From Colwellia sp. MB3u-45 (GTDB taxonomy: Bacteria > Pseudomonadota > Gammaproteobacteria > Enterobacterales > Alteromonadaceae): a DNA stretch of 64,000 bases. Numbering within the stretch: the first letter of the stretch is position 1; every line of letters begins with the position of its first letter. Below the pieces are notes generated by a model. The model had not been told where the DNA came from. It searched no databases and was given only the letters and a program-made list of their open reading frames with translations. Shown here one piece after another: positions 1,684 through 60,375 of the stretch. The translations under genes were made by a program, and so were the position numbers. The DNA is taken from assembly GCF_014077005.1 (NCBI RefSeq), contig NZ_JACGVC010000044.1, positions 186,001 through 250,000 of the forward strand, in the 5' to 3' direction.

Positions 1684-3378
1684 ATGAATATATACCCATC
1701 AAAGATAATCAAAAAATCAAGCCTAGTTGCCCTGGCTATCATCGCTTTATTTGGCTGTAATAAGCCAACCTCTGCGCCCTTGCAAATTAACCTAAAAGAC
1801 TTATCTAGTGAGGTTAATGCTGACAATATCAAAGCCCATATAGAATTTCTGGCTGATGACACCTTACAGGGTAGAGATACCGGTAGTAGTGGCTACCAAA
1901 TTGCGGCCAACTATGTGAAATCTTATTTTAAGCAGCTGGGGTTAACTCCACAAGGGAGCAATATCACCAATGAGTCTCTCGGTTTTGAACAGCAAGTCCG
2001 ATTTCGTAAAAGTTATCTTATTGACGACTCTGCCCAAGCAACTATTCATGGCTTAGCGGGCGACATTGAACTGAATTTTTTGACCGATTTTTTAATGTCA
2101 GGCTCAAGCTTACAAAATGAAACGGCGATTACCGCCCCAACCGTGTTTGTTGGTTACGGGGTTATATCTGCAGAGTTTGGTTATAACGATTATGAAAACA
2201 TTGATGTTAATGGCAAAATTGTTGTTGCTTTAACCGGCCGACCTGATGATTTACCCTCTGAAGAAGGTGCACATATCGGCTCAAATGCCGAGAAGAGTCG
2301 ACATGCTGCAGAACATGGTGCTATCGGTTTTATTACGATACACAGTCCCAAGCGTGAAAAAGTGCGCAGTTTTGAAAAATCAGCGCAATATGCAAAAGCG
2401 CCGAGTGTCAGCTGGCTTACTCAAGATAATATGCCGTTTGGTAAACAAGAAAAAATTATAACAGGAGCTTATATAGCCCCAGAGGCAGCCGAGGCGTTAT
2501 TTGTAGGCGCAGCAAGCACACTAGCGGATATTTATGCTGCCGACACTAATGATATGGCCATTAAAGGTTTTGCTTTGCCTTATCAAGTTACCTTGAAAAA
2601 CCGCTCACGTCATGAACAGATCACTAGCCCTAATATTATCGCTGCCGTTACAGGTAGCGATGAAAAATTAAAAAACGAATATGTTGTCTTTAGTGCCCAC
2701 CTTGATCACATTGGCATAAGCGTTGATAGTGACAATGAAGACACTATCAATAATGGCGCCTTAGATAATGCTTCGGGTGTGGCCATTTTACTTGAAACCG
2801 CACGTTTATTAGCACAAATGCCAATTAAGCCAAAACGTTCAGTGTTGTTTGTTGTCGTGACCGGCGAAGAAAAAGGTTTGCTAGGTTCGAGTTATTTTGC
2901 CAATAATCCCACCCTACCTGTGTCGCAATTAGTCGCCAATGTGAATTTAGATATGCCGTTAATTTTATATCCTTTTGCTGATGTTATCGCTTTTGGCTCT
3001 ACTCATTCAACGATGGGGAAAATTGTCGCGACAGCAGCACAGAAAATCGATATAGAACTGAGTGAAGACCCAATGCCAGAACAGGCGCTTTTTACCCGTA
3101 GTGATCATTACAGCTTTGTTAAGGTTGGCATTCCATCGGTCTTTTTAATGACAGGTTTTAAATCAACAGATGCAAGTATTGATGGTGGTGCAGTATTTGG
3201 TGATTTCTTGAAAAATCATTACCACCAACACAGTGACGAAATCAGCTTACCCATAAATTACCAAGCGGCGGCTAACTTTGCATTGGTTAATATGATGATA
3301 GGTTTAGAAATTGCTAACCAAGTGGCACGACCAGAGTGGCATAGTGATGATTTTTTTGGTTCAACATTTGGGCAATAA
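1684..3378 (+). CDS. Lipoprotein M28-family zinc aminopeptidase with PA-type insert
   Basis: A 564-residue exported metallopeptidase. The N-terminus has a basic stretch, a hydrophobic segment and a lipobox ending LFGC (Cys25), so it should be a lipoprotein. Residues of about 150-270 resemble a protease-associated (PA) insert, and residues of about 310-530 form the M28 domain. Expected zinc ligands are visible: SAHLDH (His339, Asp341), GALDNASG (Asp361), the catalytic GEEKGLLGS (Glu395/396), NLDMP (Asp423), and a His cluster HYHQHSDE near residue 514. It probably releases N-terminal amino acids from peptides in the periplasm or at the cell surface. It stands alone, 70 bases before an HDOD gene. 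The substrate is unknown. Confidence 0.9.
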   Translation: MNIYPSKIIKKSSLVALAIIALFGCNKPTSAPLQINLKDLSSEVNADNIKAHIEFLADDTLQGRDTGSSGYQIAANYVKSYFKQLGLTPQGSNITNESLGFEQQVRFRKSYLIDDSAQATIHGLAGDIELNFLTDFLMSGSSLQNETAITAPTVFVGYGVISAEFGYNDYENIDVNGKIVVALTGRPDDLPSEEGAHIGSNAEKSRHAAEHGAIGFITIHSPKREKVRSFEKSAQYAKAPSVSWLTQDNMPFGKQEKIITGAYIAPEAAEALFVGAASTLADIYAADTNDMAIKGFALPYQVTLKNRSRHEQITSPNIIAAVTGSDEKLKNEYVVFSAHLDHIGISVDSDNEDTINNGALDNASGVAILLETARLLAQMPIKPKRSVLFVVVTGEEKGLLGSSYFANNPTLPVSQLVANVNLDMPLILYPFADVIAFGSTHSTMGKIVATAAQKIDIELSEDPMPEQALFTRSDHYSFVKVGIPSVFLMTGFKSTDASIDGGAVFGDFLKNHYHQHSDEISLPINYQAAANFALVNMMIGLEIANQVARPEWHSDDFFGSTFGQ

Positions 3379-3451: not shown

Positions 3452-4291
3452 ATGAATGCTCTTGAATATGCCCAGCAAGCCAATGGTTCTTTTGCCTTAC
3501 CCGACGCGTGTTTTAAAATAAAAGCCTTAATGGAAGATGAGAGTTCTACGCTAGAAGATTTCGCCAATGTCATCCGTGTGGATCCCTCGATGACATCGCG
3601 TTTATTACAAATGTCTAATAGTGCCATTTACAGCTTCCCGGGTGAGATCAGTACCATTTCACGTGCCATTACTATTATTGGTACGCAAGCCATCTACAAC
3701 CTGATGCTAGTCGACGTAGCCGCGACAGCCTTTAAGCACTTTTCAAATCAGTCGATCGATTTAAAGCGCTTTTGGCGTCTCAGTGTATTTTGTGGTTTAG
3801 TGACAAAGAACTTAGCCATTACCGCCGGAATTCGAGACATAGAACGGCTATTTGTTGCGGGCTTATTACAAAATTTTGGCGAGCTTATTGTGGCCAAAAT
3901 TTCGCCCGCGTTAGCAAAGCAATGCGAAGCTTATAATGCGGATGTATTACCGTGGCAATTACAGCAACAGGTATTGGGTTTTAGTTACGCTGAAGTCTCT
4001 GCTGAGTTACTTAAAATTTGGCAGTTACCAGAAAAAATAATTTTACCTATTCGCCACTATAATAATGCCCATAATATTGAACTCAATAAAGATGTTAACG
4101 TGCTGTATTTAGCCTCAAGATTGGCATTAGTCGCGTGTCATCCGGAGATTTTTAGTTACGATGATAGTATTGATGCAACACTATGTCAGGCCTTGAAAAT
4201 ATCAACAGATGATTTAGAAATTGCGGCAAATTTCGCGACAATAGAAACCGATAATATCTTCAATATTATGAACGTAAAGTTTTATGGTTAA
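3452..4291 (+). CDS. HDOD-domain signalling protein (paralogue 1)
   Basis: A 279-residue protein made almost entirely of one HDOD domain, a non-enzymatic relative of HD phosphohydrolases found in signal transduction proteins. The typical segment VIRVDPSMTSRLLQMSNSA is at residues of about 30-50, followed by PGEISTISRAITIIG. There is no attached EAL, GGDEF or receiver domain. It is paralogous to the gene at 12037-12885: the two N-termini align almost residue for residue. A Shine-Dalgarno-like AAGGAA lies 15-20 bases upstream. HDOD proteins in this group are linked to c-di-GMP, motility or stress signalling, but the specific role here is unknown. Confidence 0.88.
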   Translation: MNALEYAQQANGSFALPDACFKIKALMEDESSTLEDFANVIRVDPSMTSRLLQMSNSAIYSFPGEISTISRAITIIGTQAIYNLMLVDVAATAFKHFSNQSIDLKRFWRLSVFCGLVTKNLAITAGIRDIERLFVAGLLQNFGELIVAKISPALAKQCEAYNADVLPWQLQQQVLGFSYAEVSAELLKIWQLPEKIILPIRHYNNAHNIELNKDVNVLYLASRLALVACHPEIFSYDDSIDATLCQALKISTDDLEIAANFATIETDNIFNIMNVKFYG

Positions 4292-4476
4292 TGGGGCTTA
4301 ACAAGTGCAACAAATATTATACAGGCTACTCGATAAATGCTGCGGTTAAAAACAAGACTTTATTAAAGAAGCCTGCTAGCATCGATCAGTTAATAAAAGT
4401 TACCTCAATAAAAACGGGCGCTGTGAAGTAAAAAATTATAATTATTAGCCCTAAAAAAATACAACGAAGGATACTT

Positions 4477-5901
4477 ATGAGTACAGAAAGAGAGCATTTC
4501 AGTTCCCGCTTAGGGTTCATTTTAGCCGCTGCGGGTTCTGCAGTTGGTATTGGTAATTTGGTTGGCTTTCCAGTGAATGCGGCCAAAAACGGTGGTGGTG
4601 CATTTTTATTAATGTACGCTGTTTTTGTTTTACTTATATGCTTACCTGTGATGGTTGCTGAAATGGCCGTTGGTCGCAAAACCGCGAAAGAACCGGTGGG
4701 GGCTTACAAAGCGTTGAGTGGCGGTAGTAAAGCTTGGGGGGCGGCAGGTTTTCTTGGCGTGTTAACGCCCTTTATGATTGCTGTATTTTATATGGTGATA
4801 ACGGTATGGATTTTTGGCTATCTTGTGCTAACACTAAGCGGTAATTTAGATTATTTAGCCAGTAATAACGGCTTTAGTGAGTTTGTTAATAGCCCCTACT
4901 TATTTTTGGGTATGATTGTCGTGGCAGCCATTATTAACTTTATTCTTGTGGCGGGTGTTAAAGATGGCATTGAGCGCGCCTCAAAAATATTGATGCCAAC
5001 CTTGTTTATTATGCTACTGATTATGGTGGGTTATGTCCTAACACTAGAGAATGCGCTTTTAGGTGTTGAGTTCTTTTTAATTCCGGATGTTGCTAAAATT
5101 ACCCCATCGGTAATTAATGGCGCTTTGTCACAAGCATTTTTCTCCTTGTCTCTAGGTATGGGGATATTGATCACTTATGGCTCTTATATTGACCGTAAAA
5201 CGGATATTGTTGGCTCCGCAAAACTTGTTGCTCTGACCGATACGGCGGTAGCATTCATCGCTGGCTTAATGATTTTACCCGCGGTATTTTCATTTAATCC
5301 CAACGTTAATCCAGCTGAATTAAGTGATAGTTCAGTGTCATTAATTTTTACCTTTTTACCTAAAATATTTTTAGCATTACAAAGCTCAATCGGTTACATC
5401 GGCGCGAGTGCTGTTGCGGCATTTTTCTTCACTTTAGTATTCTTTGCTGCCATCACCTCACTAGTGTCAATTTTAGAAGTACCGGTTTCCTATCTAGTCA
5501 CAGAGAAAAAACACAGCCGTAAGAAAGCATTGTCAATATTATTGATGAGTGCTGGGCTACTCACTATTTTTGCTACCTTGTCGTTTGGTATGGTGTCATT
5601 CTTTACCGAGTTTACCTCATATGCCGGCGGCGTTCGGTCATTTTTTGATGTGGTATATGATGTTTTCTACGAGACTATTTTACCCTTGAATGGCTTTTTA
5701 TTATGTGTATTTGTTAGCTATCGTTGGAAGAAACTTAATTTATCTGAAGAGCTAGCGAGAGGTAATGCAAACTATATAGGGTCTTGGGCCGAAAAGTATA
5801 TTAACTTCTCTTTAGGTACTTTTATCCCTGTTATTGTTTTTGCTATCTTTATTAATACTGTGCTGCAAAAATTCTTTGGCTATAGCATCTTTGGCTTTTA
5901 A
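4477..5901 (+). CDS. Neurotransmitter:sodium symporter (NSS/SNF) family transporter
   Basis: A 474-residue inner-membrane Na+-coupled amino-acid or amine transporter of the LeuT fold, with about 11-12 hydrophobic segments. TM1 carries the signature GSAVGIGNLVGFP (residues 20-32), including Asn27, a sodium ligand in LeuT. At the place of LeuT Arg30 (outer gate) there is Gly30, and LeuT Asn21 is Ser here, so the gate and sodium-site details may differ. The start has a good ribosome site (AAGGA, 9 bases before ATG). A strong terminator follows at 5955. It is monocistronic. The substrate cannot be read from sequence; bacterial homologues carry aromatic or branched amino acids. Confidence 0.93.
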   Translation: MSTEREHFSSRLGFILAAAGSAVGIGNLVGFPVNAAKNGGGAFLLMYAVFVLLICLPVMVAEMAVGRKTAKEPVGAYKALSGGSKAWGAAGFLGVLTPFMIAVFYMVITVWIFGYLVLTLSGNLDYLASNNGFSEFVNSPYLFLGMIVVAAIINFILVAGVKDGIERASKILMPTLFIMLLIMVGYVLTLENALLGVEFFLIPDVAKITPSVINGALSQAFFSLSLGMGILITYGSYIDRKTDIVGSAKLVALTDTAVAFIAGLMILPAVFSFNPNVNPAELSDSSVSLIFTFLPKIFLALQSSIGYIGASAVAAFFFTLVFFAAITSLVSILEVPVSYLVTEKKHSRKKALSILLMSAGLLTIFATLSFGMVSFFTEFTSYAGGVRSFFDVVYDVFYETILPLNGFLLCVFVSYRWKKLNLSEELARGNANYIGSWAEKYINFSLGTFIPVIVFAIFINTVLQKFFGYSIFGF

Positions 5902-6012: not shown

Positions 6013-6906
6013 ATGATTGAATTTATCTCCGTATCTGATTTTAGTGAAAGCCAGCGACTATTTCATGGCCGTGGCCATGCATACCCCGCATTGTCACATG
6101 TCAATGTTGATTGGTTTGAACCCGTCATTTTGATCAGTTTATATCAAGAAGTTGAAGCTCATTGGCTAGCAGAACAAGTAGCGGCTTTACAGACTTTGAG
6201 CGATAAGTGTCAATCAATTCAAGTGCAATACCGCTGCCGTAAATTTGCTCCATGTGAATTGCTCTGGGGGCAGGAAGTCACTGACTTGTGTGCTGTAGAG
6301 TATGGTTTGAAATACCATATTAGTTTAGGTAAAGCGCAAAATTCAGGTTTGTTTTTGGATATGCGTAATGGCCGAGACTGGGTTCAAAAGCATAGTGAAA
6401 ATAAGCAGGTATTAAATTTATTCTCTTATACTTGTGCTTTTTCTGTTGCGGCATTGGCTGGTAACGCCAGTAAAGTGGTGAACGTTGACATGAGCAAAAG
6501 CTCATTAACTAAAGGTCGAGAAAACCATAGATTAAACCAACAAGATCTCAGCAAAGTTATTTTTGAAGGTGTTGACATTTTTAAGTCTTATGGACGCCTG
6601 AAAAGGTATGGACCGTATCAGTTATTAGTGTGCGATCCGCCATCTTTTCAAAAAGGGAGTGTTGATATTGTCAGAGACTATAAGAAAATTATTCGTCGCT
6701 TGCCTGAGCTAATGTCAGATAATGGTGATGTATTGTTGTGCTTAAACTCTCCTGATCTTAATGTGGATTTTTTAATGGCTGAGGTTGCAAGAGAATGCCC
6801 TGAGTGCGTTTTTCAGTATCAACTTAAGACACCCGCAGTATTTAAAGAAGCGCATCAAGGTAAAGGGCTTAAATGTTTGTATTTTATATATAAACCGAGT
6901 GCATAA
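6013..6906 (+). CDS. Class I SAM-dependent methyltransferase, RlmI/RlmK-like (COG1092)
   Basis: A 297-residue protein with the Rossmann-fold methyltransferase domain of the family that includes 23S rRNA m5C1962 methyltransferase RlmI and the C-terminal half of RlmKL. SAM-binding motif I is around NLFSYTCAFSVAAL (residues 135-148), the acidic motif is VNVDMSKSSL, and the catalytic loop is CDPPSFQKG (residues 207-215). Unlike RlmI there is no recognisable PUA RNA-binding domain; the N-terminal 100 residues are different, so the substrate may not be the RlmI site. It starts just after the terminator of the previous gene and is convergent with the LysE gene. An RNA target is likely but unproven. 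Confidence 0.88.
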   Translation: MIEFISVSDFSESQRLFHGRGHAYPALSHVNVDWFEPVILISLYQEVEAHWLAEQVAALQTLSDKCQSIQVQYRCRKFAPCELLWGQEVTDLCAVEYGLKYHISLGKAQNSGLFLDMRNGRDWVQKHSENKQVLNLFSYTCAFSVAALAGNASKVVNVDMSKSSLTKGRENHRLNQQDLSKVIFEGVDIFKSYGRLKRYGPYQLLVCDPPSFQKGSVDIVRDYKKIIRRLPELMSDNGDVLLCLNSPDLNVDFLMAEVARECPECVFQYQLKTPAVFKEAHQGKGLKCLYFIYKPSA

Positions 6907-55702: not shown

Positions 55703-57958
55703 ATGACTATCACTATGACTAAATTAAATACAGTATTTTTGGGCGGTTTAGTTGCTTTAAGCGCGCCTATTATGGCGGCAGATAAGTTAAATAGCTTTCA
55801 ATCGTTAAACGGCTATACCGGGCTAATAAATACGCCCTCAGCACAGGCGCAGGCTAAAGGCACGGTTGATATTGGCTATAATAACCAGCTTGATTTTCGT
55901 GGTAATAAATATATAGATGGTCATAACTTTATATTTAGTGCTGGGTTATTTAAGGGCTTTGAGGTTAGCGGGCAAATTGCTGCTAATTCAATGAACGATA
56001 ATTTTTTTTATAGCGAGGGAAAAGGTCAGACGAGGGACTTGTCGTTTAATGCGAAGTATCAACTTCCGTTTATTCCTAATGATTGGTTTAGTTTAGCATT
56101 AGGGGGTAAAGATATTGGTGGCGCTGCGAATAATTACGCAACTTATTATGCGGTGGCCTCTAAACAAATATGGGATTTTAGATTTTCTGCGGGTATTGCA
56201 ACCAGCGAGCGTTTAACTGGGCAAATGGATGGGGTATTTGCCGGTGTTGAGTGGCAATTATTTGATTGGTTTAGCCTACAGGTAGAGCATGATGGTGAGG
56301 CAGAAAATGCCGCGGCTCGCATTACCTTACCCAAAAAATGGCTGTTTGATGTAGGTACATTGACCTTAACCAGTCGCTTTTATAGTAATAGCGCTTATGA
56401 TGAACAGGGCACCTATTGGGGCCTTAACCTTACCATACCCTTGTTTGATGACTATGATCAGCCAACAGTTAACAGCAAAAGCGCAGCACAAGTACAGCGA
56501 AATCACGCGGCGCCAACATATGGTGTAAAACAAAATAAACCGCCAGGGTTTTCTTCTTTTGCTCCCAGGGCTGCTGCACCTGTACCTTTAGTGGCTCCTG
56601 CACCTGTAACAACTACTGCGGCATCAAAGAACACGCCTAGCCGCAATACCATGAAAGTTGCAGCACAGGCTACGGCTCTCCAGATAACGGCAGCTGATAC
56701 CGCTTTAAATACTCTTACCTTAAATAAATTGACCTTAAATAAACTGACCTTAAATACCCAAGCATTCTCGCTAAAAGCGGCACTGGCTGCCGATGGCTTT
56801 GAAAACATACTGGTAGGTTATAACCAACAAAAGCAGTTGATTATTCAGTTTGAAAATCCGGTGTTTAACCGTAACGATATTGATGCTTTTGGTTTAGTCC
56901 TTGGCCGTATCGCTGAACATGTAACTGAGCCGGGTGTTGAGTTTAATGTTCAGCTGGCAAAATACGATACGCCATTAATGAGTATACTTGGGCAAGTTGA
57001 TAATTACCGCGCCTTTATTAACGGCCAGCAAAACCCAGACTTAGCTATACACCAAGGTGTAACGGCTATCCCTAAAGGGGTAACTTGGGTTGGGCTTACA
57101 CGAGCAAACTCGCCTTACTTTAAACCCCGGGTGACCATTAGCCCAGCACTAACAAACACTTATGCTACCGAGTTGGGTGTTATTGATTTTTCGTTAGCGC
57201 TTCGCGCTGATATTGATTTACCCTTATGGCAAGGGGGCGGTGTAAGTGTTAGCGGCCAAGTACATGTTGCTAACTCTGACGACTTTGAAAAAACCGCCCC
57301 ATTTAAACGTTATCGTGAGCATACCGGGGTTGACCGTGCGGTGTTTTATCAAACATTTGCTTTACCTTTTGGTTTATACAACCAAACTCAAGTAGGTTAC
57401 TTTCAAGAAACTTACGATTACAGCGGTATTATTAATGAAACCGCTTGGTTAAGCCCTGCAGGGCGCCACAAGGTAAGTGCTAATGTAGGCTACTTTGTAT
57501 ATCAAAACTATAATGGTAACCGCGACTATAAAACGATGTCGTATCAATATAACTGGGTAGAGCAGAATATTACTTTTCATGCCACGGCCGGTGAGTTTTG
57601 GAGTACCGATACCGGCGCTAAACTAGAAAGCCGTTTTTGGTTTGGTGATAGTTACATTGGCCTGTTTTACGAAAATACCAGCGCGCAAAAAGCCGGGGTG
57701 TCTATCAGTATTCCGCTAACCTCACGTAAAGATATGGCCGTTACCCGATATGGTCAAATAAAGGGTAAAGAAGCATGGCGCCATACGGCGAGTACGCAAA
57801 TAGGCAAGTCGCATAACCGCTTGGTATTTAACCAGGGCTACACCCCAGGCACTGCCATTAGCTTAGATCGTAGTTTTTTCAATCAAGGCCGCATGTCGAG
57901 CGATTATATTTATGCTAATTTAGCCCGATTGAAAAATGCTTATATGGAGTATAAGTAA
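55703..57958 (+). CDS. YjbH-type outer-membrane protein
   Basis: A 751-residue exported protein of the YjbH family (exopolysaccharide-associated beta-barrel). Signal peptide of about 26 residues ending APIMA. The conserved block NGYTGLINTPSAQAQAKGTVDIGYNNQ starts the mature protein. Many aromatic beta-strand segments continue to residue 250, then a Pro/Ala/Thr-rich spacer (about 265-345) with a repeated LTLNKLTLNK unit, then the C-terminal half ending in RYGQIKGKEAWRHTASTQ and a final barrel-like strand. In E. coli yjbH belongs to yjbEFGH; here it stands alone. A second ATG four codons later is possible. Confidence 0.88.
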   Translation: MTITMTKLNTVFLGGLVALSAPIMAADKLNSFQSLNGYTGLINTPSAQAQAKGTVDIGYNNQLDFRGNKYIDGHNFIFSAGLFKGFEVSGQIAANSMNDNFFYSEGKGQTRDLSFNAKYQLPFIPNDWFSLALGGKDIGGAANNYATYYAVASKQIWDFRFSAGIATSERLTGQMDGVFAGVEWQLFDWFSLQVEHDGEAENAAARITLPKKWLFDVGTLTLTSRFYSNSAYDEQGTYWGLNLTIPLFDDYDQPTVNSKSAAQVQRNHAAPTYGVKQNKPPGFSSFAPRAAAPVPLVAPAPVTTTAASKNTPSRNTMKVAAQATALQITAADTALNTLTLNKLTLNKLTLNTQAFSLKAALAADGFENILVGYNQQKQLIIQFENPVFNRNDIDAFGLVLGRIAEHVTEPGVEFNVQLAKYDTPLMSILGQVDNYRAFINGQQNPDLAIHQGVTAIPKGVTWVGLTRANSPYFKPRVTISPALTNTYATELGVIDFSLALRADIDLPLWQGGGVSVSGQVHVANSDDFEKTAPFKRYREHTGVDRAVFYQTFALPFGLYNQTQVGYFQETYDYSGIINETAWLSPAGRHKVSANVGYFVYQNYNGNRDYKTMSYQYNWVEQNITFHATAGEFWSTDTGAKLESRFWFGDSYIGLFYENTSAQKAGVSISIPLTSRKDMAVTRYGQIKGKEAWRHTASTQIGKSHNRLVFNQGYTPGTAISLDRSFFNQGRMSSDYIYANLARLKNAYMEYK

Positions 57959-57992
57959 AAGAAGGGCAGAGATCTTTTGGTTGAAGTTTACC

Positions 57993-58607
57993 GTAGGGGC
58001 GAATTTATTCGCCTTGGTACCAACCAAATATAAAACACAGGTGATTGGCAAATTGTTCGGCCAATAAAGGCGACTAAAGTCGCCCCTACGTTTTTAAAGA
58101 CATTTTTTGGTTGCGGCCTGCTGTAGGGGCGAATTCATTCGCCGTGGCACCAACCTCAATATAAAACACAGGTATTGGCCAGTTGTTCAGCCAATAAAGG
58201 CGACTAAAGTCGCCCCTACGTTTTTTAACGACATTTTTGGTTGCGGCCACCTGTAGGGGCGAATTCATTCGCCGTGGCACCAACCTAAATATAAAACACA
58301 GGTGTTGGCCAGTTGTTCAGCCAATAAAGGCGACTAAAGTCGCCCCTACGTTTTTAAAGACGTTTTTTGGTTGTGGCACCTGTAGGGGCGAATTTATTCG
58401 CCTTGGCACTAACCTCAATATAAAACACAGGTATTGGCCAGTTGTTCAGCCAATAAAGGCGACTGAAGTCGCCCCTACGTTTTTAAATGCGTTTTTTGGT
58501 TGCGGCCACTTGTAGGGGCGAATTTATTCGCCTTGGAACAAAGTTAAATATAAACACTGGTATTGGTAAATTGTTCAGCTGATAAAGGCGACTGAAGTCG
58601 CCCCTAC
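57993..58607. repeat. Tandem array of five REPIN-like elements
   Basis: Five units at 57993-58089, 58123-58219, 58253-58349, 58382-58478 and 58512-58607, 96-97 bases each, at 129-130-base periods. Each opens with GTAGGGGCGAATT(T/C)ATTCGCC-like sequence and ends with its inverted partner GGCGACTAAAGTCGCCCCTAC-like sequence; the outer 10 bases are perfect inverted repeats, each arm also has its own hairpin, and a central ATTGGC/GCCAAT pair forms a third. The joins (about 33 bases, T-rich then TTTTTTGGTTGCGGC) are also repeated. No transposase (RAYT) gene is nearby. Confidence 0.93.
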
Positions 58608-58719
58608 GTTTTTTAAAGCAGTTTAAAGACAGTTTAAAGCTATAATCTTTTAGCTTTTAGCAAAAAATTAACAAGCTCTATGTTTAACCACGGGATACAA
58701 CAAGGTACAATTAAGCAGC

Positions 58720-58764
58720 ATTAAAAATCAACACAATGACGCAGTATTAAAAACAACACAATGA
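58720..58764. repeat. Imperfect direct repeat upstream of lipoprotein gene
   Basis: ATTAAAAATCAACACAATGA (58720-58739) and ATTAAAAACAACACAATGA (58746-58764), two near-identical 19-20-base units, 25 bases apart, just before the ribosome site. Confidence 0.65.
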
Positions 58765-58785
58765 TGGAATCAAAAAGGACTCTCT

Positions 58786-60375
58786 ATGTTTACTAACAAA
58801 AAATCACTATTAGCTTTATCAGTAGCATCTGCTATTGCATTATCAGGTTGCTTTAGCGACAAAAAAGGTGCTGATGCGCCACCACCGGTTGAGCCGCCAC
58901 CAGCAGTCATCGTTCAGCCAGAAGCGCCAGTGGCATTAGCTCCTGTTGCAAATGTTAACGTTATTGATGCCGAAAGTGCTGACCTTGTTGCTGCTAATAT
59001 TTCATTTTTCGAAAATGGTACAGCGTCAACAAACGTAGTTGATATTGATGGTAATGTTACTGCTACTATTGACTCTACCGATGGTAGCTTTACTTTTCAG
59101 CTGAAAAGTGGTGCTAGTGTTTCAGAAGTAACGGCTATTGTTACCGCTGATACTTATATTACTAAAAGCTATGTTATTGAGCTTGAAGACTTAAGCGAAG
59201 GTAACTTAGATCTGCAATTGAAGCTGATCTCAAAAGACACAGCGGGTGTTGCAACTACTGAAGTAACTGCGTCTGTAGCAGGTGGAGCTACTCCAGATGA
59301 AATTACTGGCGGTGTAGCCGATGGTAAAGCAGCAGCAAATGTAACGGTTGCTGCGGGCACTATATTACAAGATGCCGATGGCAATGCAATTCCTGGTGAC
59401 TCTGTCTCATTAGCGATAGTTACTGCAGATACTAGTACATCTTCTGGTACAGCAATTACGCCAGAAGGCTTAAATGCTGCTGAGTCAGCTACAACGCTTA
59501 CACCTGTAAGTGTTGCAAGCATAGTAATGGTTGATAATACTGGCGTTAAGATTAAGAAATTTTCTCAGCCAATTACTATTGAAATGGCACTACCTGAAGA
59601 TAAAGGTTTTACTACAGGTGATGAGCTAACATTGCTTTCGCAAAACGAAGATACGGGTGTGTGGACAACTGAAACTCAAAAATTAGTTGTGGGTGACCTA
59701 GTTACAGCAGAAAACTATTACAATGCTAGTTTTGCAACTGATCACTTAACTACTTTTGCGGGTGTTACAGTAAGCGATACTTGTTCTGTACCAGTGCGTA
59801 TTTTAACTACGGGTGATGCAATACCTGCTGATGGTTTGTATGTTGATATTTCATCAGCTAGCGTTAATTTTTCTAAAAAGCTTAAAGCGAATAATCCAAT
59901 ACTAGTAAAACTAAACAAGTTATCTAAAAGAGGTATTGCTACAGATACTACAGCGAATTTAGTGATTACTGATAGCAGTGACACAGTATGGTTTGAAACA
60001 ACGTCAGAAGTTGCCTTATGTGGTGATATTCCGGTAGTATTAGATGGCCCAGCTGTTGTTAATGAAACTCTTTCGTTAGTAGCGCAGTGTAGTAACGATA
60101 CCAGCTTAACTGTAGGTGCTTCTGGCGCGTTAGTTAAATATAGCTTAGGTAATAAGTCTAAAAAAGTGGCTAAAGACGAGGGTGAGGGTACTTACGCTCT
60201 AAGAAACCTTCTTGACGGTTCAACTTATAACGTAAGCGTTACCTATAAAGGTAGCCTTGCAGACTTAGGTACTAAAACGTATACAATTACTGCAGATGGC
60301 ACTGACGAAACACAAACAGAGTCTATTGTTTGTGATACTGCAACAGGTGGTACAGGTGCTACAGGTGGTTCATAG
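58786..60375 (+). CDS. Large outer-membrane lipoprotein of unknown function
   Basis: A 529-residue protein with a lipobox LSGC (Cys22), followed by FSDKK; Phe at +2 favours outer-membrane sorting. A Pro-rich linker (residues of about 30-55, DAPPPVEPPPAVIVQPEAP) leads into a Thr/Ala/Val/Asp-rich beta-type body with no recognised domain; blocks such as GNVTATIDSTDGSFTFQLKSG look like Ig-like or carboxypeptidase-regulatory-like folds (inference). Four Cys residues lie in the last 200 residues (in TCSV, LCGD, QCSN, VCDT). Tail GGTGATGGS. AAGGA ribosome site; terminator at 60450. I do not recognise the family. Confidence 0.8.
   Translation: MFTNKKSLLALSVASAIALSGCFSDKKGADAPPPVEPPPAVIVQPEAPVALAPVANVNVIDAESADLVAANISFFENGTASTNVVDIDGNVTATIDSTDGSFTFQLKSGASVSEVTAIVTADTYITKSYVIELEDLSEGNLDLQLKLISKDTAGVATTEVTASVAGGATPDEITGGVADGKAAANVTVAAGTILQDADGNAIPGDSVSLAIVTADTSTSSGTAITPEGLNAAESATTLTPVSVASIVMVDNTGVKIKKFSQPITIEMALPEDKGFTTGDELTLLSQNEDTGVWTTETQKLVVGDLVTAENYYNASFATDHLTTFAGVTVSDTCSVPVRILTTGDAIPADGLYVDISSASVNFSKKLKANNPILVKLNKLSKRGIATDTTANLVITDSSDTVWFETTSEVALCGDIPVVLDGPAVVNETLSLVAQCSNDTSLTVGASGALVKYSLGNKSKKVAKDEGEGTYALRNLLDGSTYNVSVTYKGSLADLGTKTYTITADGTDETQTESIVCDTATGGTGATGGS

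Follow-up and report, generated by a model that had tools for sequence, protein, structure and literature searches.

A tandem array of five REPINs was found between a yjbH-type gene and a lipoprotein gene in the window, the whole 64,000-nucleotide stretch of Colwellia sp. MB3u-45 DNA that was analyzed. We interpret it, with a probability of about 0.85, as a BIME-2-like array whose REPs belong to a GTAG-type family present in some Colwellia genomes; on this reading, it arose from a single ancestral insertion followed by tandem duplication and is now a passive residue. The array is thus most likely inert mobile-element residue that is able to form strong RNA hairpins. Growth of the array can here be distinguished from transposition because the joins between units resemble the array's own flanks, the same site in a congeneric genome taken to be that of Colwellia sp. 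MB02u-6 (G012) holds a different number of copies, and no intact cognate transposase was found in the genome of the window (G000), which makes the locus a tidy case for separating REPIN array growth from REPIN transposition.

Array anatomy

The array (positions 57993 to 58607) consisted of five head-to-tail REPIN units of 97, 97, 97, 97, and 96 bp on the plus strand, with unit-to-unit periods of 130, 130, 129, and 130 bp, and was detected by Tandem Repeats Finder at 57993 to 58618 (score, 966). The units were located at 57993 to 58089, 58123 to 58219, 58253 to 58349, 58382 to 58478, and 58512 to 58607 and were joined by linkers at 58090 to 58122, 58220 to 58252, 58350 to 58381, and 58479 to 58511, all on the plus strand. 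Upstream of the array lay the yjbH-type gene (55703 to 57958, plus strand; 751 amino acids [aa]; PF06082, 86.8 bits). Downstream, a leader that was also recognizable in G012 (58608 to 58785, plus strand) preceded the lipoprotein gene (58786 to 60375, plus strand; 529 aa).

Each unit was an inverted pair of GTAG-tagged REPs that started with GTAGGGGCGA and ended with TCGCCCCTAC; all 10 ends were exact, and no other copy of either 10-mer was found in the window outside the array. The initial annotation, which described five 96- to 97-bp units with inverted ends at a period of 129 to 130 bp and repeated joins, was borne out in these respects, the linkers resembling one another as well. The repetition of both units and joins, with no unique spacers, led to rejection of a CRISPR as a candidate.

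The window REP resembles the GTAG superfamily as characterized by Di Nocera et al. in 2013 (PMC3733652), in which a GTAG tag, an unpaired dinucleotide, a 6-bp stem, and a TY loop are described. The tag was present at one end of the palindrome in all 10 arms as an exact GTAGGGGCGA, and the arms had the short stem, 2-base TY loop (TT or TC, read from the tag inward), and unpaired dinucleotide of the GTAG-1/2 layout. The two arms of one unit differed from each other, with stems of GCGAAT/ATTCGC on the left and GCGACT/AGTCGC on the right (from the tag inward).

Predicted folding

In the predicted folds, the two inverted REPs of a unit formed one hairpin unit, as expected of REPINs. All five units folded far better as plus-strand RNA than shuffled sequences did (z scores of -4.7 to -6.5; 0 of 200 shuffles as good), and DNA folding of units 1 and 5, the two tested, gave z scores of -5.5 to -6.8 over both strands. 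The left and right arm stems were unbroken in all 14 units (5 in the window and 9 in the array at the same site in G012), in agreement with the hairpin per arm that had been annotated initially. The smaller central hairpin (ATTGGC/GCCAAT) that had also been proposed was upheld in part: pairing was possible in every one of the 14 units when G-U pairs were allowed (84/84 cells), and of the five window units, only unit 1 had the hairpin in its predicted minimum-energy RNA fold. Its 13 variant cells all formed G-U pairs on the plus strand and would form A-C mismatches on the other strand, a pattern that weakly suggests a structure that matters on the plus strand, as RNA or as single-stranded DNA. 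Four of the central pairs varied, none of them on both sides and with no excess over shuffles, so that covariation provides no proof of the structure.

A T-run directly followed the closing stem in all 5 window units and all 9 G012 units. Between positions 57900 and 58900, terminator-like matches numbered five on the plus strand and two on the minus strand, with 1.1 expected in all, the five plus-strand sites being near copies of one another and therefore amounting to one observation repeated. Promoter-like matches in the same interval were not above chance (1 found versus 1.6 expected), and an Rfam search of positions 57500 to 59000 gave no match up to an E value of 1.

The same site and an intact RAYT in a congener

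In the congeneric genome G012, this site held an array of nine full units plus three extra left arms, compared to five units in the window, and the spacer between yjbH and the lipoprotein gene was 1,500 bp in G012 versus 827 bp in the window. Elsewhere in G012 (contig C27), an intact RAYT gene was found (P0001; 155 aa; NF047646, 149.8 bits with a cutoff of 80). It was flanked by the same REP arms in tandem repeats, with 7.2 copies before and 4.2 copies after the gene, and its stop codon fell inside the first downstream REP. Such a layout of a RAYT flanked by REPs is termed a REPtron in PMC3733652. A RAYT flanked by the same REPs was therefore found in the congener and not in the window's own genome, and the view of the initial annotation that the units are REPINs gains its support by way of the congener. 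The RAYT and its REPIN arrays (L069, positions 3993 to 5877) were situated between two flagellin-like genes, of which the downstream one was scanned.

REP arms and RAYTs in the genome, genus, and class

The exact 21-bp left arm had six copies in G000. Five belonged to the array, and the sixth was part of a solo REPIN of 70 bp in the rfb region (C47, positions 122426 to 122495). At up to two mismatches, 12 REP arms were counted, 10 in the array and 2 in the solo REPIN, and two further matches to GTAGGGGCGA had no palindrome. The high copy number associated with GTAG REPs was therefore not seen in G000 (12 arms, versus 89 in genome G003). None of the 14 exact 10-mer matches in G000 was at a contig end. 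The sole Y1_Tnp match in G000 was a gene disrupted by three stops that shared 25% identity with the G012 RAYT, and no REP arms were found within 1.5 kb of it. An intact cognate RAYT was not found in G000, an assembly of 59 contigs, so that a copy could have been missed. According to the initial annotation, a lack of other copies in the genome together with the lack of a RAYT gene would point to a local satellite. With one solo copy besides the array, no dispersed population, and no intact cognate RAYT found, the outcome is borderline within G000, and only the congener decides the matter. Another short dispersed repeat adjoined the solo REPIN (L014, positions 6536 to 6626; G000, contig C47), with copies elsewhere in G000 and none found in the window; in genome G008 (C103; L213), this other repeat formed tandem arrays of ~118 to 125 bp.

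Across the genus, the REP pattern was found in 5 of 17 genomes and some Y1_Tnp match in 13 of 17. REP arms per genome at up to two mismatches numbered 89 in G003, 44 in G012, 12 in G000, 2 in G006, and 1 in G004. Among the 28 Y1_Tnp loci of the genus, each searched with 1.5 kb on either side, the G012 locus was the only one with these arms; the link between RAYT and REP rests on this one locus. G003 had many arm sites, but its nearest RAYT relative was 42% identical to P0001 and had no REP arms within 1.5 kb, and a RAYT serving the arms of G003 was not found. Convergent neighboring arm pairs in four genomes joined one arm of each type in 26 of 27 cases (exact arms, ≤120 bp apart), a count in which tandem copies are scored singly and which therefore represents fewer independent cases.

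The solo REPIN in the rfb region was shared with G006, in which a REPIN occupied the matching place. In G004, the two segments matching this site enclosed one arm, which carried one mismatch, and in G012, the two matching rfb genes adjoined each other with no REP between them. Of the 369 genomes covered by a class-wide pattern search, 3 had the left arm, G000 being one of them. Another of the three was G068, a member of another family of the same class, in which the left arm was part of a 114-bp tandem repeat with about four copies (C44; L206, positions 832 to 1272).

Neighboring genes and array-free spacers

The lipoprotein gene was adjoined by a yjbH homologue in 13 of 17 related loci. Seven of the 17 came from named records (six from Pseudoalteromonas and one from G012), and the other ten were further loci of the family. 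In all seven named-record loci, yjbH was directly upstream of the lipoprotein gene. Among the ten others, three had yjbH upstream, and in another three, a weaker yjbH match lay on the opposite side of the lipoprotein gene; the remaining four had none within the fetched flank, which was short at L191. The lipoprotein gene is therefore no orphan, contrary to the initial annotation.

The six Pseudoalteromonas spacers were free of REP arms when up to one mismatch was allowed, and the longest of them showed no tandem repeat. After subtraction of the array, the spacer measured 212 bp in the window and 232 bp in G012, and five of the six Pseudoalteromonas spacers measured about 209 to 247 bp, the remaining one being 677 bp long. 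The array is best read as an addition to a spacer of normal length, since the length without it is like that of most relatives. The suggestion that the array acts as a structured spacer in front of the lipoprotein gene is not required, because in the six Pseudoalteromonas loci, the two genes are still paired with no REP arm between them.

Growth of the array

The four window linkers were 32 to 33 bp long, and each resembled the right flank of the array (58608 to 58621, plus strand, containing the T-run) followed by the left flank (57974 to 57992, plus strand). For the linker starts compared to the right flank, 0, 1, 3, and 3 of 2,000 random window segments scored as well, and for the linker ends compared to the left flank, 1, 11, 32, and 28 of 2,000 scored as well. 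The joins of the G012 array likewise resembled the G012 flanks (four of eight joins covered; 2, 0, 0, and 0 of 2,000 random segments scored as well for the linker starts and 0 for all four linker ends). The 5' half of each linker was likely derived from the right flank and the 3' half from the left flank, and a segment consisting of flank, REPIN, and flank was probably duplicated in tandem. Local amplification, as the initial annotation had suggested, is supported as the most likely mode of growth.

Unit 5 was the most diverged, again as initially annotated, with 16 to 20 differences from units 1 to 4, which differed among themselves at 2 to 9 positions. Pairs of units showed a mean of 11.0 differences within the window array, 7.1 within the G012 array, and 12.6 when one unit was taken from each. 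Window unit w1 was equally far from w2 and from G012 unit g2 (9 differences each), and w5 was closer to g1 than to any window unit. In a tree of the 14 units, w1 to w4 grouped together (support, 0.90), as did the edge units w5 and g1 (0.83) and units g2, g5, and g7 (0.96); most other nodes were weak. Given the position of w1 as near g2 as w2 and of w5 nearest g1, homogenization within a species can be seen only for the inner units.

We propose that, before divergence from G012, a single REPIN inserted 34 bp downstream of the yjbH stop codon. The REPIN, together with ~19 bp on its left and ~14 bp on its right, would then have been duplicated in tandem, and unequal recombination would have changed the copy number to 5 in the window and 9 in G012. 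As no intact cognate transposase was found in G000, the array is expected to have lost its mobility as a REPIN, and any effect it has is probably passive. Should transcription continue from yjbH across the array, the transcript would contain a chain of very stable hairpins with a T-run after each, which may protect the end of the yjbH mRNA and reduce read-through into the lipoprotein gene.

Constraint on the arms and alternative explanations

Among the window units, 2 of 42 arm columns varied, both in loops, versus 20 of 57 other columns (hypergeometric test, P = 2e-4; columns not fully independent, here and below), although no intact cognate RAYT was found in the genome. Such constraint on the arms is not predicted by pure decay, and arms that stay intact while spacers drift make the array a place to test for host benefit from REPINs, for which retention by host benefit has been proposed in a published model of REPIN populations in general (PMC8049555). 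The host might use the array as a repeated terminator or mRNA-stabilizing structure between yjbH and the lipoprotein gene, with selection keeping the arms. We consider this unlikely, and slightly more so the proposal that a transposase-less REPIN array is kept by the host for its structure, as a transcribed multiterminator or mRNA-protecting element whose copy number tunes the effect. Besides the arm constraint, use by the host is favored by the T-run behind every closing stem in the 5 window and 9 G012 units, by the 13 central-hairpin variants that all remain paired as G-U on the plus strand and not on the other, and by the keeping of the array in both species. Several points speak against it. 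The T-run is present in the right flank too and may come from the landing site; only four central pairs vary, none on both sides, so that the 13 cells represent few events; and the six Pseudoalteromonas loci hold the gene pair without the array. The contrast between arms and spacers is not unique to an array lacking a RAYT, as it was similar and weaker in the array before the intact G012 RAYT (5 of 42 arm columns versus 13 of 44 others, P = 0.04); in the G012 array at the same site, it was 4 of 42 versus 16 of 57 (P = 0.02). Repair templated by the palindromes could also keep the arms intact.

A local satellite that merely resembles REPINs would be consistent with the single other copy in the genome and with the failure to find an intact cognate RAYT. 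This explanation is very improbable and is largely refuted by the G012 RAYT locus, since the same arms flank an intact RAYT there, number 89 in G003, and form a solo REPIN in G006; a satellite without relatives elsewhere would not share its arms with G003, G006, and G012. Scarcely credible, and the least probable of the explanations considered, is that every unit stems from its own REPIN insertion, beside or within the unit that preceded it. REPINs inserted into or beside others have been described (PMC3116915), and the G012 array has three extra single arms, but the 32- to 33-bp linkers resemble each other and both flanks, which insertion would not copy. A single insertion followed by tandem duplication thus remains the preferred reading.

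Comparison with described arrays

Tandem arrays of REPINs or BIME-2 elements have already been described (PMC3116915, PMC3733652, and PMC2817692). In Pseudomonas fluorescens SBW25, Bertels and Rainey reported in 2011 16 ordered REPIN clusters that include flanking sequence, the largest with four REPINs and a REP over more than 700 bp (PMC3116915). Tandem arrays are not unusual in light of these clusters, although the initial annotation contrasted the array with REPINs that mostly occur as single dispersed copies. Like the window array, the SBW25 clusters consist of near-identical REPINs repeated in tandem with flanking sequence. In contrast, SBW25 has a large dispersed REPIN population and RAYTs, and in the genome of the window, the five units are accompanied by one solo copy, and an intact cognate RAYT was not found. 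What sets this case somewhat apart is that the same genome has almost no other copies and yielded no intact cognate RAYT.

Dimers reiterated in tandem with flanking DNA are likewise described for the GTAG REP superfamily (PMC3733652). In Escherichia coli, BIME-2 consists of several tandem BIME-1-like units and binds gyrase, the rayt gene is bounded by two REP types (Y and Z2) with BIME-2 on both sides, and REPs are cited as aiding Rho-dependent termination (PMC2817692). The tandem inverted REP pairs with repeated joins that characterize BIME-2 were present in the window array; the two REP types of E. coli parallel the two arm types found here, and the rayt gene flanked by BIME-2 parallels the array-flanked RAYT of G012. 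The REP sequence of BIME-2 differs from that of the window, and binding of gyrase and IHF is a feature of the E. coli BIME-2.

A literature search combining "Colwellia" with "repetitive extragenic palindromic" returned a single match, unrelated by its title and the start of its abstract; matches to the letters GTAGGGGCGA were unrelated by title, and the name "Colwellia" does not occur in the main text of PMC3733652, PMC2817692, or PMC12306157. In G003, one end of an insertion sequence with DDE_Tnp_1 (C28; L224, positions 1936 to 3293) was joined to a truncated REP in several places, mostly at contig ends; REPs are known as targets of insertion sequences in other bacteria (PMC1525189).
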